This document shows, piece after piece, positions 4,872-56,520 of a stretch of 64,000 nucleotides of DNA. The DNA comes from a virus, in the IMG/VR virus record IMGVR_UViG_3300033429_000002, positions 1-64,000 of that record, one strand, 5' to 3'. The notes beneath the pieces were generated by a model, which was not told where the DNA came from, did not search any database, and was given only the letters and a program-made list of their open reading frames with translations. How positions within the stretch are numbered: position 1 is the first letter of the stretch; each line of letters begins with the position of its first letter. The position numbers and the translations under genes were made by a program.

Positions 4872-5504
4872 CTATATCTCCGCTAAAATGAGACCACCGT
4901 TATCTTCTGTTGGAGGTGTGATGCTAGTAAAATAATCTGTATCTTTTTCCACTGTTTGAACTATACCGCTGAATAGATATTCTATTGTTGCTTGATTTAT
5001 GTATTTGTCATCATCAACACTTGATAAAACGTTTGGTCTTATAGTCTGCCCAAGTGGGTGAAACGCTATATCCGCCGCTTCCAATATATTATTAACTGAT
5101 TGAATGTAAGATCTGTTTATGATGTTTTGTATGTAGCTATCAGCCGAGACTCTGATTTTTTTATGGTTCTGATCGTATGAGTCAACAAAGCAACTAATCT
5201 GCACCGACCACTTAAAAGGCTGAAAATATGTTGTCTCGTAATTGTCAGTTACAGAATTATAATTCTTTCTGAACCAAGGCTGGCCTTGAGTTGGTTGTGA
5301 AATTTTTGTAAGTAATATATAGGGCCGTACCCGATCAAATTCTGAACCCTCCCAGTATATCGCCCTCCCACCTGACAGGTGTTTTTTGTCGCTTGGCAAT
5401 GTTGACGTTGCGTAGTTAGGTAATGCTGAAGCCGTCTTTGCCCACGTTGCTATCGCATCCTCAATCGCTCTAAAATCAGTTATCTGTTCAATGGTTACTG
5501 TCAT
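4872..5504 (-). CDS. Neck terminator protein gp12-like (LIC_12616 family)
   Basis: 210 aa. It sits between head-closure genes and the sheath gene. The motifs 'RPYILLTKI' and a 'FSGIVQTV'-type strand near the C-terminus match the phage neck terminator family seen next to DUF3383 sheath genes. Such proteins cap the tube and join it to the neck. It overlaps the upstream gene by 4 nt (ATGA). Assignment is by resemblance and synteny. Confidence 0.65.
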   Translation of the reverse strand: MTVTIEQITDFRAIEDAIATWAKTASALPNYATSTLPSDKKHLSGGRAIYWEGSEFDRVRPYILLTKISQPTQGQPWFRKNYNSVTDNYETTYFQPFKWSVQISCFVDSYDQNHKKIRVSADSYIQNIINRSYIQSVNNILEAADIAFHPLGQTIRPNVLSSVDDDKYINQATIEYLFSGIVQTVEKDTDYFTSITPPTEDNGGLILAEI

Positions 5505-27748: not shown

Positions 27749-27964
27749 TTAAAAGTATTCAGCATTGAATTCCATTATATCATCCGCAATATCAGATAAT
27801 AACTCAGGGGATTCAATGATTGGAGCGTCTGATTGCATTATACATTCCCCACTGAAACTCTCATGTTTTTTGAAAAAATCCACAACCTTGTCGTAGACTG
27901 CTTTGATCTTTTCCGGTGTTTCTTCCCATGTTACTTTCATGTCTTCAGTCTTATACTCTTTCAT
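27749..27964 (-). CDS. Unknown small acidic protein
   Basis: 71 aa from ATG 27964, chosen because it overlaps the upstream stop as ATGA; the longer frame (to 28024) adds Thr/Arg residues that are out-of-frame shadow of the upstream gene. Acidic and helical. Unknown function. Confidence 0.5.
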   Translation of the reverse strand: MKEYKTEDMKVTWEETPEKIKAVYDKVVDFFKKHESFSGECIMQSDAPIIESPELLSDIADDIMEFNAEYF

Positions 27965-28455
27965 TGTTCCTCTAGTTGTTCGAGTTGTTCGAGTGCTAAA
28001 TGAATTAACCGAAAGGCTTTCCATGATTTATCACGTAGTTTTTCAGGATCAATAGACCCTAGCAATAAATCAGCATCTTTAATGGCATCAATAACCGGTT
28101 GCGTTCTTTTGCGCTCGTTTTTTTCTGCTGATTTTGCCAACTCTAAAAGCTCACTTGCAGTGTATGGGGTCGCCCTAGCGTCGGCTATTGAATCGTCGTA
28201 CTTTGCTTTAAACATTTTTAACAACTCCTCAGCACTAACCGGTCCATCTTCGATTGGTTCTAGCCATGAATCAGGGATGTCTTTAAAAAACCAATTCCAT
28301 CCCGCTAGAGTAGTTCCTGAAATTATTTCCTCAACTATAAAATCATTACAATCCTGCAATGAGTATAGTCCCTTCTCATTTAATGCCATGACAATATCAC
28401 AGTCTTTGCGCTGGACCATCTCAGGAATAACTAATTTATATCTTTTAGTCATCAC
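27961..28455 (-). CDS. Unknown helical protein
   Basis: 164 aa. Ends in a Leu/Glu-rich helix (HLALEQLEQLEEQ). Middle segment 'FFKDIPDSWLEPIEDGPVSAEELL' and the 'YTASELLELAKSAE' helix are regular but not recognised. ATGA coupling to the downstream gene. Confidence 0.55.
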   Translation of the reverse strand: MMTKRYKLVIPEMVQRKDCDIVMALNEKGLYSLQDCNDFIVEEIISGTTLAGWNWFFKDIPDSWLEPIEDGPVSAEELLKMFKAKYDDSIADARATPYTASELLELAKSAEKNERKRTQPVIDAIKDADLLLGSIDPEKLRDKSWKAFRLIHLALEQLEQLEEQ

Positions 28456-28473
28456 ATCCCCTTTTGCTATATG

Positions 28474-28752
28474 TTATTGTTTGTTTAGTAGCTCCGTAAA
28501 TTGAAGGTCATCGATATCATAGTCATAAATTGCCTGTTCTAGTCCTTTTTCAAGCTCTGCGATTCTACCGTTCTTCCACACTGGACAGTATTCTTCGTGG
28601 TACTTCCGCTCAGGCGTTTTTGTCAGGCATTTGCAAAGTTCGTGAAGGCGTGAATTTTTTCCAGCAAGCTTATTCATCAGATCCGCAGATGATTTTATTT
28701 CATCAGGTATTATCCCAAAATTCTTAATTTGCTGTTCAGCTTCTTTTTTCAT
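28474..28752 (-). CDS. Unknown small protein with Cys-His cluster
   Basis: 92 aa. 'ELCKCLTKTPERKYHEEYCPVW' contains three Cys and one His and may bind metal; flanks are helical. It directly follows the ClpX-type zinc finger gene. Unrecognised. Confidence 0.5.
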   Translation of the reverse strand: MKKEAEQQIKNFGIIPDEIKSSADLMNKLAGKNSRLHELCKCLTKTPERKYHEEYCPVWKNGRIAELEKGLEQAIYDYDIDDLQFTELLNKQ

Positions 28753-48771: not shown

Positions 48772-49152
48772 TTATACCAGCCATGTTTTAATCAATGCCA
48801 GCTTCCACTTGTTTTTCCACTCATAAAAGCGCATTGTAAACGCCTCTTGAGTTTCTTCTATCCTCTTTGATGGCTTTTCTGACATTTCAGTTCCACATAA
48901 GTGATGACCCCAAACGGTTAACTGATCAGGGATCTTTCCGCTAGTTATGCCTCCCCCTGACAGGAATTTTATGTCAGGGTCTTCGCAGTGATGATAATAG
49001 CTGGTATCGTCGTCTGGCTCCCCGCAGAAACGGCAATGAAACCTATCAGGTTTTTCAATCTCCCTGATCTTTTTACGGGAAGTTTTTTTTACTTTCTTGA
49101 TCTTTTCCCCAGGTTTTGGGTGTGCCGGGCCGTGTTGATTATTTGTTATCAT
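48772..49152 (-). CDS. Zinc-binding protein of unknown function
   Basis: 126 aa. Basic start, then 'FHCRFCGEPDDDTSYYHHCED' and 'GHHLCGTEM' forming a probable Cys/His metal site. It overlaps the HNH-type gene by 14 nt. Not recognised beyond this. Confidence 0.5.
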   Translation of the reverse strand: MITNNQHGPAHPKPGEKIKKVKKTSRKKIREIEKPDRFHCRFCGEPDDDTSYYHHCEDPDIKFLSGGGITSGKIPDQLTVWGHHLCGTEMSEKPSKRIEETQEAFTMRFYEWKNKWKLALIKTWLV

Positions 49153-49711
49153 TCCACAATATACCCCTGATGACAGCTCTTATGTTTTGGTCACTTACCC
49201 CAAAAACCTGGGATAGTTCACCGGAATTATAGTTTCCTGTTTTATGGAGATCTCTTATCATCTCGGCCTTAAGCATACTGAGCTTCATAGACCTTCTAGC
49301 CCTTAAATTGTCAACTCTTCTGACAAACCTACAATTAGACGGCTCATAGTCACCGTTAGGATCTATGCGGTCTATCTCGAGTCCTTTCTCGTATCCGTTT
49401 TCACGCGCCCAAATTATAAAAGACTTCGACGAAGATCTCCACTCTTCACACACTTTTATTCCCCTGGCCCCGTACCATCTATAACTTGAGCATGTTTTTG
49501 TATAACACCTAAGCTTCATCCCGTGCCACACTACCCACTCCGGTTCATATCTTTGACCATTTTTCCAGCACCCGCAAGATTTATATTTTTTACCGTCATA
49601 AAGACCCCTTTCCACCTCTTTTTTGCATTTGTGGCAATAGAACAACCCAAATCTAACAACGCTGAACCCGTTTTCACGCTTTCTAATATCCAGCTTTTTT
49701 ATCAATTCCAT
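49139..49711 (-). CDS. HNH-type endonuclease, freestanding
   Basis: 190 aa. 'FYCHKCKKEVERG' and 'KSCGCW' form a zinc knuckle; 'EIDRIDPNGDYEPSNCRFV' is the HNH-like core seen in phage homing endonucleases; residues 140-190 contain an HTH ('NSGELSQVFGVSDQNIRAVI'). Such genes spread by cutting alleles lacking them. It lies between small accessory genes. Confidence 0.75.
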   Translation of the reverse strand: MELIKKLDIRKRENGFSVVRFGLFYCHKCKKEVERGLYDGKKYKSCGCWKNGQRYEPEWVVWHGMKLRCYTKTCSSYRWYGARGIKVCEEWRSSSKSFIIWARENGYEKGLEIDRIDPNGDYEPSNCRFVRRVDNLRARRSMKLSMLKAEMIRDLHKTGNYNSGELSQVFGVSDQNIRAVIRGILWNDNK

Positions 49712-54465: not shown

Positions 54466-54562
54466 TTAAAAAGCCCAAAAATCTAAGAGTTGTCCAGCGA
54501 AAAGAAATAATATCTAATTGCACTCTTGACTTTTGGGCTTATTTCTTCCAACTGGACAAGAT
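54466..54562 (-). promoter_or_regulatory. Leader with interleaved inverted repeats, copy A
   Basis: Minus strand order: CTGGACAA partner TTGTCCAG (54552-54559, 54490-54497) and AGCCCAAAA/TTTTGGGCT (54531-54539, 54472-54480). The pairs alternate (P1, P2, P1', P2'), so both cannot form as nested hairpins; they make a pseudoknot or a switch. P2 is followed by a T-run (GGGCTTTTT), terminator-like. Same design as 56433-56520. Confidence 0.7.
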
Positions 54563-54564
54563 AA

Positions 54565-54593
54565 GCATTACATATATAGACCTATTATGTCAA
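54565..54593 (-). promoter_or_regulatory. Promoter of the GIY-YIG gene leader
   Basis: Minus strand TTGACA (54588-54593), 17-nt spacer, TAATGC (54565-54570). Transcription would begin at about 54558, at the first stem of the interleaved leader. Confidence 0.6.
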
Positions 54594-54600
54594 CGATTAT

Positions 54601-55008
54601 TTACCTCTGCGGAGGTGTTTGGTACGGATCGTATTGATTCCCCTGATTGCTTTGTTGCTGACTCTGATTTCCTGATGGTTTAGAGTCGAGCATTTGCATT
54701 TGAGAAACAACAATTTCAGTTGTGTATTTTTCGATATTATCCTTATCGGTCCACTTTCTTGTCTGAAGTTTACCTTCGACATAAATAAGAGATCCTTTTT
54801 TGCAATAAGTCGAAACAATATCGGCGACTTGATTCCAGAATACCAACTTATGATATTCTGTTGATTGCTGCTTTGAACCGTCTTTTCCTTTGTACGATTC
54901 ATTCGTAGCGAGCGAAACGGAAACCACTGAATGACCTTGAGGCGTAGATCTTTTTTCTGGATCTTGGCAGAGATTTCCGACTAAAATTACTTTATTTATT
55001 GCTGGCAT
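54601..55008 (-). CDS. ssb: Single-stranded DNA-binding protein
   Basis: 135 aa from ATG 55008 (MPAINKVILVGNL); the upstream in-frame start at 55053 lies in the ERF gene. OB-fold signature 'NKVILVGNLCQDPEKR', 'FSVATNESY'-type strand and 'KGSLIYVEGKLQTRKW' is clear. The C-terminus is Gln/Asn-rich and ends PYQTPPQR, without the usual acidic DDIPF tip used to recruit host partners. Confidence 0.9.
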   Translation of the reverse strand: MPAINKVILVGNLCQDPEKRSTPQGHSVVSVSLATNESYKGKDGSKQQSTEYHKLVFWNQVADIVSTYCKKGSLIYVEGKLQTRKWTDKDNIEKYTTEIVVSQMQMLDSKPSGNQSQQQSNQGNQYDPYQTPPQR

Positions 55009-55651
55009 TTTGCTCCTTTGGGAATTTTTTAATATATCCGATTTGCCGATCATTTAAAGCATGTTTTATCTTATCTTTGTAAACTGTGTTTCCTTCATAC
55101 ACTATACCGTCCCACGAATTATAGAAATCCATCCACGAATCGTGCGGTATTTCTGGCAGATGATTTGAATCGCTTTTCCCTGGGGGCGTGTCAGTTGTTT
55201 TCCCGTCCGGGTCTTTCTCTTCCTTGCTTGACACTTGAAACAATTTAAAATAAAACCTTTTGCAAGCTTCTGTTATCGCCTGCCCACAACTCTTTCCGCC
55301 AACGTCCTGATCTGCACCAACCCACATTTTAACAATAGAATACCCGGTGTCTATATCTATTATCTCGAACTTCATTTTTACGATTGACCTGATCCACTTC
55401 CCGTCTTTTGATTCTGAATAGTCAACAATTTCAGGAATAATCGAAAGCCTGTGACTCTCAAGATGCTCCCTCATTAAAGCAACCATTTTATTGCTTGTTA
55501 TGTACTCATAATTAGAGTGGGTGTTTTTCCCATCCTCTGCAACCGCACCAAAGGACTTAAGCATTTTGCTTATTTTTTCTCCTAATTTCGCTTTTTGGTC
55601 TGCATACTGGTGGTTACATGTACAGCTTGCTTTATCAAATTCGTTTTCCAT
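54992..55651 (-). CDS. erf: ERF-family single-strand annealing recombinase
   Basis: 219 aa. 'HSNYEYITSNKMVALMREHLESHRLSIIPEI' region (about 45-75), 'IDTGYSIVKMWVGADQDVGGKSCGQAITEACKRFYFKLF' region (about 100-138) are diagnostic of P22 Erf-like annealases. It lies with SSB and a PD-(D/E)XK nuclease, forming a recombination set interrupted by an HNH gene. Confidence 0.8.
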   Translation of the reverse strand: MENEFDKASCTCNHQYADQKAKLGEKISKMLKSFGAVAEDGKNTHSNYEYITSNKMVALMREHLESHRLSIIPEIVDYSESKDGKWIRSIVKMKFEIIDIDTGYSIVKMWVGADQDVGGKSCGQAITEACKRFYFKLFQVSSKEEKDPDGKTTDTPPGKSDSNHLPEIPHDSWMDFYNSWDGIVYEGNTVYKDKIKHALNDRQIGYIKKFPKEQNASNK

Positions 55652-56423
55652 TCTTCAACTCCTTTTTATAGTCAATCTCATATTTTTTTATTCTTCTACA
55701 CAATGTAAGAGTATTTACTCCAAGCACCTCGGCTGATCGTTTGAGTGTACAGTTTTTATTTAGCGTGTTTAGAATTTTATATTTCGTTAATGATTTCGCG
55801 TTGTTCCTATAGATCCCGTAGTATTTCTCCCTCTTTTTTATGTTGTCAATTGACATGCCTAGATATTCGGATGCCTCTGTTTTTGTATTGAATTTTCTAA
55901 GTGCATCTATCAGTACATCTTTCGTTATGTCTTTCCTCCATTGCCAGTGGTCCTCTTTCCGGTGCTTGCCTGACATTCTTTTTCGCATCTTCTCTATCGT
56001 TTCTTGTTTTAATTTTTTCCCCTTTGGGTTATGCAATGAAGAATGTTCAGATTTTGTCATTAGATCCAGGTTTTCAACTCTGTTGTCAGCACGATCCCCG
56101 TTCTTGTGGTGGACAACTTCGCCTTTTTTTACAGGTCTTCCTATTAGCTCCTCCATGACTATATATTGTTCAGGCATTCTTTTTCCGTTATGATGCACCC
56201 ACTTATACCCGTTATTATTACCTCCTTTCCATGATGTGCTCTTATCACCTGTCTTTATACGGCCATTGCTTTTTGCCAAGTCTGAAGCCTCCTTTAGGCT
56301 TCTTCTCTTAACCCCGCTTGTTTTTATGTGGTAATACACTGTGTGAAAATTCATCTCTAGCTCTTCCGATATCTCCAGCCCGCTCATACCAGATAAATAC
56401 ATCCTCGATATTCTTTCTTTCAT
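55635..56423 (-). CDS. HNH homing endonuclease
   Basis: 262 aa. N-terminal HTH-like start, then 'KGEVVHHKNGDRADNRVENL' (about 99-118) with 'SEHSSLHN', the HNH core, then a NUMOD-like region and C-terminal HTHs ('TEASEYLGMSIDNIKK', 'RSAEVLGVNTLTLCRRIKK'). It splits the exo and ERF genes of the recombination set and overlaps the ERF start by 17 nt. Preceded by its own promoter and a structured leader. Confidence 0.85.
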   Translation of the reverse strand: MKERISRMYLSGMSGLEISEELEMNFHTVYYHIKTSGVKRRSLKEASDLAKSNGRIKTGDKSTSWKGGNNNGYKWVHHNGKRMPEQYIVMEELIGRPVKKGEVVHHKNGDRADNRVENLDLMTKSEHSSLHNPKGKKLKQETIEKMRKRMSGKHRKEDHWQWRKDITKDVLIDALRKFNTKTEASEYLGMSIDNIKKREKYYGIYRNNAKSLTKYKILNTLNKNCTLKRSAEVLGVNTLTLCRRIKKYEIDYKKELKNGKRI

Positions 56424-56432
56424 GGTCTCTTA

Positions 56433-56520
56433 AAATAAAAAAGCCGCGTATCAAGAGGTGTCAACAGATCAGAGAAAATGATTTGACTCTCAATGCGCGG
56501 CTTAATTTCTCAACTGTTGA
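56433..56520 (-). promoter_or_regulatory. Leader with interleaved inverted repeats, copy B
   Basis: Pairs AAGCCGCG/CGCGGCTT (about 56442-56449 with 56495-56502) and GTCAACAG/CTGTTGAC (about 56459-56466 with 56514-56521) alternate along the strand as in copy A. The GC stem is followed by TTTTTT on the minus strand, terminator-like. Arm sequences differ completely from copy A but pair perfectly, while the linker 'TTGAGAAATTAAGCC' resembles 'TTGGAAGAAATAAGCC' of copy A. Confidence 0.7.

Follow-up and report, generated by a model that had tools for sequence, protein, structure and literature searches.

Short leaders in front of two nuclease genes of a virus appear to act as a 5'-terminal pseudoknot attenuator of homing-endonuclease cassettes, limiting their expression. 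We give this reading, which was reached from sequence comparison and structure prediction, a probability of about 0.55. The design of the leaders is probably a built-in volume control that travels with endonuclease genes. The two leaders lie in a window of 64,000 nucleotides (the whole stretch of DNA that was analysed), which belongs to a virus record of 70,071 bases.

Two nuclease genes with interleaved leaders

Both nuclease genes sit in a minus-strand recombination operon with the gene order 317-aa ORF, HNH, ERF, SSB, GIY-YIG, RNA ligase. An HNH_3 endonuclease gene (56423-55635, minus strand; 262 aa with helix-turn-helix segments; HNH_3, E 6e-13, and HTH_8, 1e-8, in Pfam) is inserted between the 317-aa ORF and the ERF recombinase gene, and a T5orf172/MUG113 nuclease gene of the GIY-YIG clan (54452-53964, minus strand; 162 aa; MUG113, E 5e-15, and T5orf172, E 5e-13, in Pfam) between the SSB and RNA ligase genes. 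The initial annotation had placed each leader before a nuclease gene of one of these two types, and Pfam agreed. Overlap of the HNH gene with the ERF recombinase gene (55635-55651) takes in the start and the ribosome site of ERF, so that the leader promoter would also drive ERF and SSB. A third endonuclease-like ORF (49139-49711, minus strand; MELIKKLDIRK..) overlaps the gene upstream of it and is leaderless; by eye it resembles the HNH gene downstream of a leader in another locus, L072.

The leader of the HNH gene extends on the minus strand from 56521 to 56441, with its helices interleaved as P1-P2-P1'-P2' and then a U-run. P1 (56521-56514, GTCAACAG) forms 8 of 8 pairs with P1' (56467-56460, CTGTTGAC), which lies within the loop of the terminator. 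The 5' arm of the terminator hairpin is P2 (56503-56487, AAGCCGCGCATTGAGAG) and its 3' arm is P2' (56457-56441, CTCTTGATACGCGGCTT), with the U-run (56440-56432, TTTTATTTT) directly 3' of the latter. P2:P2' contains one C.A mismatch and two G-U pairs, and the stability of the hairpin corresponded to a z of -2.8 against dinucleotide shuffles. P1' has a second possible local partner in GUCAA of the hairpin, which is a true alternative pairing. The promoter (56557-56528, minus strand) consists of TTGACA (56557-56552), 18 nt, and an extended -10, TACTAT (56533-56528); it scored 10/12 matches with TG present in the promoter scan, and its -35 overlaps the last codons of the upstream ORF. P1 lies about 7 nt past the -10 box, and the predicted +1 falls on it.

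The leader of the GIY-YIG gene (minus strand, 54559-54471) has the same order of helices, followed again by a U-run. P1 (54559-54552, TTGTCCAG) forms 8 of 8 pairs with CTGGACAA; P1' (54498-54490, GCTGGACAA) gives 8-9 bp with P1. P2 (54540-54522, AAGCCCAAAAGTCAAGAGT) pairs with P2' (54489-54471, ACTCTTAGATTTTTGGGCTT) leaving a small internal loop, and the U-run (54470-54462, TTTAATTTT) is directly 3' of P2'. The terminator hairpin had a stability z of -4.0 against dinucleotide shuffles. The promoter-like sequence (54593-54564, minus strand) comprises TTGACA (54593-54588), 18 nt and AATGCT (54569-54564), i.e. a perfect -35 and a poor -10 with TG upstream of it; the weakness of the -10 explains why the promoter scan missed this copy. 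Thus, of what the initial annotation had proposed, perfect pairing holds for P1 in both copies and not for P2, which has a mismatch or a small internal loop, while the promoter that predicts a transcription start at the leader is good in the HNH copy and has a poor -10 in the GIY-YIG copy.

Each window cassette therefore has the anatomy of an attenuator, with a GC-rich hairpin and an immediate U-run between promoter and gene: its own promoter, a P1 on which the transcript is predicted to begin, a P1' lodged within the loop that P2 closes, a P2' serving as the 3' arm of an intrinsic terminator, and the ribosome site and start codon directly behind. The ATG codons (56423 for the HNH gene, 54452 for the GIY-YIG gene) are 18-19 nt past the hairpins, and the leaders stand directly 3' of the upstream stop codon. 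The Shine-Dalgarno-like sequences (AAGGAAAG/AAGAGA) are 3' of the U-run, outside P2, and their extra pairing with L1 is weak. No promoter-like site was found from P2 to the start codon in either window leader.

Homology of the two leaders

When the window was scanned on both strands for P1-P2-P1'-P2' followed by a T-run, the two leaders and one weak plus-strand match came up, with no further convincing copy, while ten shuffled windows gave 2 matches in total (about 0.2 per window). The common order of the four strands and the T-run noted in the initial annotation is thus supported by both scan and shuffles. Local alignment of the two leaders, from the P1 end to the ribosome site, gave a score of 52, to be compared with 20.3 ± 3.5 (maximum 33 of 500) for shuffles. 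This indicates that the two leaders are homologous, whereas the nuclease genes behind them are, from their sequences, unrelated. The initial annotation was right that the arms differ, but the leaders are not merely alike in design. The arms have been altered on both sides with retention of pairing, and nothing else in the window argues as strongly for maintained pairings and an exchangeable leader as this homology with re-paired arms; homologous leaders before unrelated nucleases mean that a leader is shared between nuclease families. A simple sequence search with the leader found no match in phage records. Near relatives of the window phage were found neither in viral contigs (by HNH or neighbour protein) nor in phage records (by neighbour protein), and there is consequently no empty site for the window itself.

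Occurrence before other endonuclease genes

The pattern TTGACA-AAGCC-GGCTTTTT brought in several P1-P2-P1'-P2'-U leaders from viral contigs. Patterns for the conserved tail were discarded as a leader finder, as they mostly retrieved ordinary terminators (L005, L009, L010, L011). A strict scan of 300 loci and 2.5 Mb yielded 30 matches versus 4 in shuffles, many of the 30 being copies of a few families; since the loci were chosen by terminator-favouring patterns, these numbers show existence and not frequency. Because this bias had to be avoided, an unbiased set of 113 endonuclease genes was fetched by coding motif only (NUMOD4, WKDI-x-GYEG). Under a similarly strict criterion, a U-run leader preceded 11 of the 113 NUMOD4/HNH genes; among the remaining genes of these loci it preceded 4 of 1002, and it was found 0, 1 and 0 times in shuffled upstream regions. 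Restricting the comparison to genes whose upstream non-coding stretch was 60 nt or longer gave 7/42 versus 4/416 (Fisher p 8e-6). If the U-run was not required and strong helices with P2' at most 30 nt from the start codon were taken instead, the figures were 23/113 versus 33/1012, with 2-4 in shuffles. Of 14 cases, 13 had a -10 (TATAAT-like) or Bacteroidetes -7 (TAnnTTTG/A) motif at a distance of 2-17 nt upstream of P1, compared with 31% of background positions, indicating that the design exists with two quite different types of host promoter, sigma70-type and Bacteroidetes-type. Several of these statistics rest on one pattern-fetched set. Bacterial genomes, considered as a second set, contained the NUMOD4 pattern too rarely (0/395 and 2/398 genomes).

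About 90% of NUMOD4 genes are without the U-run form, and most endonuclease genes are without the leader design. The design is not exclusive to endonucleases either, as it also occurs before a methyltransferase gene, replication-type genes and tRNA-like RNAs. It is not general to phage promoters: at generic loci with a promoter and a T-run, P1 was present in 4 of 110, no more commonly than in shuffles (0-3).

Compensated changes and mobility

Comparison of homologous leaders in other phages showed, in agreement with the initial annotation, that the pairings are real and compensated. The leaders of L177 and L410 are 80% identical, and two neighbouring P1 pairs are changed on both sides (..GAGTTAAG/CTTAACTC.. 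to ..GAGGCAAG/CTTGTCTC..); their inner helix P3 is wholly different, with pairing kept. L405, L319 and Polaribacter phage P12002S, the last of which was selected by its protein and not by its leader, have P1 and linker sequences in common, and their P2 arms are TTCTAAGC/GCTTAGAA, GCTGAATT/AATTCAGC and CTATGTT/AACATAG.

The idea of a mobile element was also borne out, in that leader and gene behave as one cassette, in addition to the homologous leaders found before unrelated nucleases. In pairs of otherwise dissimilar phage loci (L365/L317, L367/L393, L405/P12002S and L319/P12002S), homology extends from P1, or from at most about 12 nt away, into the nuclease gene. An empty site was provided by the close relatives P12002L and P12002S: in P12002L, a segment made up of promoter, leader and HNH gene (27918-28523) separates two genes that P12002S has side by side. 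Promoter, leader and nuclease therefore come or go together.

Forms of the leader in other phages

The initial annotation had envisaged other examples in phage genomes, and the design did recur in many phages, ahead of endonuclease genes belonging to several families. The leader of an HNH gene in L072 has a 19-bp P1 with a promoter just upstream of it. L177, a chance find, likewise with a promoter close to P1, has a leader before a NUMOD4-HNH gene with a P1 of 14 bp and a P2 of 22 bp. In L085, the leader, again with a promoter just upstream of P1, precedes a ParB-like/methyltransferase gene. Among named phages fetched by protein, the U-run form is present at the endonuclease of Flavobacterium phage FCV-1; variants were found in Polaribacter phages P12002S and P12002L and in phage D6E, and an int-alpA-like form at the endonuclease of Dulem virus 33, all but FCV-1 being recognised by reading the sequence and not by the strict criterion. 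No leader was present at the operon-internal endonucleases of Efquatrovirus LG62 and Aramis and of Lactococcus AM6, nor at the T5-like T5orf172 (GIY-YIG) genes of named phages. In L365, L317, L400, L303 and L316, P2' overlies the Shine-Dalgarno sequence and not a U-run; L365 and L317 are examples of a minimal H-type pseudoknot, with GGAG(G) or AAGGGAG at its end, and the other three are similar. What all forms have in common is that the final helix strand sits on whatever decides expression.

Several related arrangements were observed alongside. U-run leaders stand before replication-initiator-like genes in L112 (upstream of 2697) and L394 (upstream of 470). In L122 (reverse complement, 5109-5196) and L242 (859-933), tRNA-like sequences lie directly behind P1-P2-P1'-P2'-U leaders; they have acceptor and T arms and odd anticodon arms, and ARAGORN made no call. 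The leaders of L112, L122 and L242 also have a promoter just ahead of P1. L040, L118, L123, L104, L113 and relatives have a promoter, pseudoknot and terminator with no ORF behind, a covarying P1, a 23-bp P2 and a conserved trailer (GATAACTGTCAGGGCGCATTAGCTAATAGAG); this family looks like a small RNA gene. In L025, L030, L091 and relatives, the leader (TCGCGTC..GAAGCCTTTTAG..CTAAAGGGCTTTTTTCATGG) has the start codon directly on the U-run and precedes small conserved genes (MAIELTPEEQA.. or MGIYLYSQKA..). In Vibrio phage PS10B.1 (MW824430.1, upstream of 33897; L433:80-147), a GIY-YIG-like gene has a perfect 12-bp terminator hairpin (GCCGCCTCGTAG..CTACGAGGCGGC TTTTT) just before its ATG, with the -10 in the hairpin loop; read-in transcripts would thus be stopped, and those from the own promoter would be without the 5' arm.

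Proposed mechanism and alternatives

In the mechanism that we propose, RNA polymerase would start at the cassette promoter and P1 would capture P1' as this emerges, 17-19 nt before the U-run. P2', synthesised after P1', would close the terminator, and P1:P1' would determine how often it does so in time. The majority of transcripts would end at the U-run and a minority continue into the nuclease gene, with the consequence that a strong promoter would give little nuclease. Transcripts reading in from the upstream operon would face the same terminator. In the members with P2' on the Shine-Dalgarno sequence, equivalent control would be exerted at translation. The leader would travel with the nuclease gene and be transferable between nuclease families. 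A sensor of read-in based on an upstream anti-P1 was considered and rejected: the longest P1 complement in the 60 nt upstream was 3.3 versus 2.5 expected, and L400 alone was significant, so that it is not general.

The initial annotation had proposed that alternative pairing switches the terminator on or off. P1 and P2 use different nucleotides, and such a switch would therefore rest on geometry and kinetics only; what survives of the proposal is an exclusivity derived from loop length. Rod-and-tether estimates, in which L1 has to bridge the distance between the P2 base and the distal end of P1, separated an exclusive class (linker of 0-3 nt versus 20-23 bp; L177, L410, L328, L112, L242) from a compatible one (15-25 nt versus 7-14 bp), with the window leaders at the limit (tight class; 10 nt versus 24-25 pairs). 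With a linker of 0-6 nt and a P2 of 15-23 bp, paired P1 would block or nearly block the full terminator, and act as an antiterminator or a timer; with 15-25 nt, P1 and P2 could coexist, locking the hairpin. The estimate was 'compatible' in 11 of 21 leaders, which counts against a switch.

The P2 hairpin alone explains attenuation, and P1 could thus serve mRNA stability instead. An unlikely but still appreciable alternative is that the leader insulates the start of the gene, the terminator blocking read-in and ending the upstream unit, and P1:P1' hiding the 5' end to stabilise the mRNA or a short leader RNA. P1 is at +1 in most cases, where its pairing would enclose the 5' end, the leaders are directly behind the upstream stop codon, and in PS10B.1 only read-in transcripts would be stopped. 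However, the window promoter is upstream of the terminator, so that the cassette's own transcripts would be stopped too, and protection of a 5' end does not need P1' to be in the terminator loop every time.

We consider it rather improbable that the attenuator is controlled by a factor or ligand (as a riboswitch, or a site for a phage or host protein) that would switch the gene on at a fixed stage of infection. The interleaved helices with P2' on a terminator or Shine-Dalgarno sequence have the topology of small pseudoknot riboswitches, and long A-rich linkers of similar length are kept in Bacteroidetes phages, but the leaders contain no conserved aptamer-like sequence and those with a T-run have no Rfam match.

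The chances seem slight that the leader is an antidote to its own nuclease, the terminated pseudoknot being a small RNA that would bind the protein and block it, as type III toxin-antitoxin and AbiF-like systems do. The order of promoter, structured RNA, terminator and nuclease matches, and AbiF-type RNAs neutralise their protein via direct binding (PMC12373285). Yet leaders that are homologous to each other are found with unrelated nucleases, endonucleases that are related have an unrelated leader or no leader at all, replication-type and methyltransferase genes also have the design, there are no tandem repeats, and the nucleases are DNA endonucleases. Finally, that these are ordinary terminators with accidental P1/P1' complementarity is very hard to credit: P1 is just 8-9 bp in the window and many promoter-proximal T-runs of phages lack it, as the generic loci showed, but the shuffle and gene controls, the compensated changes in homologues and the tie of P1 to the start site contradict it.

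Significance

A homing endonuclease puts the phage that carries it at risk, and to our knowledge the only worked-out examples of control of such enzymes are those of T4. If the leaders are attenuators, control of expression belongs to the mobile unit itself, which would explain how such units can land between essential operon genes, here those of recombination. Attenuators of this kind would also offer compact RNA switches for experiments in phages that can be cultured (P12002L/S, D6E, FCV-1), and would suggest a possible function for int-alpA, an orphan RNA. More tentatively, and at odds that we would put a little under even, endonuclease cassettes across several bacterial phyla may share a pseudoknot RNA with its 5' strand at the transcript start and its 3' strand in the terminator or ribosome site, int-alpA RNA being one form of it; this would be a self-contained, factor-free dose limiter that recombines between nuclease families.

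Comparison with known systems

A search of the open-access literature (subscription papers being outside it) found no description of such leaders. In Rfam, the window leaders and other T-run leaders had no match, only tRNAs reaching the gathering threshold. An HDV-like self-cleaving RNA and an IscB omega RNA, candidates suggested by the topology, were dropped in view of the absence of an Rfam match and of the wrong order of helices. The order P1-P2-P1'-P2' with P2' on a terminator or Shine-Dalgarno sequence is that of riboswitches of the preQ1-I/SAM-II type, but the leaders are without a conserved ligand pocket, their arms are fully divergent and the genes are non-metabolic. Type III toxin-antitoxin and AbiF systems share with the leaders the succession of promoter, structured RNA, terminator and nuclease gene; they differ in that the leaders are exchanged between unrelated proteins and, for type III, in that a single unit replaces tandem pseudoknot repeats and the proteins are HNH_3 and MUG113/T5orf172 in Pfam and not of the ToxN fold.

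Int-alpA RNA (RF02996) is filed as an sRNA of unknown function. It resembles the leaders in having an outer helix (P1) with inner hairpins, a U-run, and possible pairing between an inner loop and purine-rich sequence further downstream, and differs in its conserved core, which the window leaders lack; these gave no match to it at the gathering threshold or at E up to 5. The leader of the D6E endonuclease (L428:945-1008, GU568037.1) scored 31.2 bits, below the cut-off of 35.8 (E 0.0028), and Dulem virus 33 (L444), L350 and L378 have the int-alpA core UAGGGU-GCUCCCGA in common. In this group of endonuclease leaders, the second hairpin has a loop that can pair with the ribosome site of the gene behind it. 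In Dulem virus 33, as read from the sequence, the loop UACCCU of the second hairpin is pairable with AGGGUA of the ribosome site, and the int-alpA consensus has CCUU in the loop of the second hairpin and AAGG downstream. Int-alpA RNA is thereby a candidate Shine-Dalgarno-masking pseudoknot, which we offer as a lead and not as a result.

T4-type homing endonucleases (I-TevI, I-TevII, I-TevIII, segB and Aeh1 mobE), among them intron-encoded and some free-standing ones, are kept at low expression by RNA hairpins that cover the ribosome site; these form only on early read-in transcripts, a later promoter making hairpin-free RNA, and mobE and segF contain terminators, with about 30% termination in mobE (PMC2988022). 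Both systems place a structured RNA in cis ahead of a homing-endonuclease gene of a phage, both serve unrelated nuclease families, and low expression, as in the T4-type genes, is predicted for our leaders. T4-type genes have a single hairpin, in contrast with the two interleaved helices that here start from +1 of the cassette promoter. Their ribosome site is in the main stem, as in L400, L303, L316 and L365 and unlike in the window leaders, and they have a second promoter within the structure, which is absent in the window, a -10 in the hairpin being seen only in PS10B.1. The leaders would thus do the job of the T4-type hairpins by a different anatomy.
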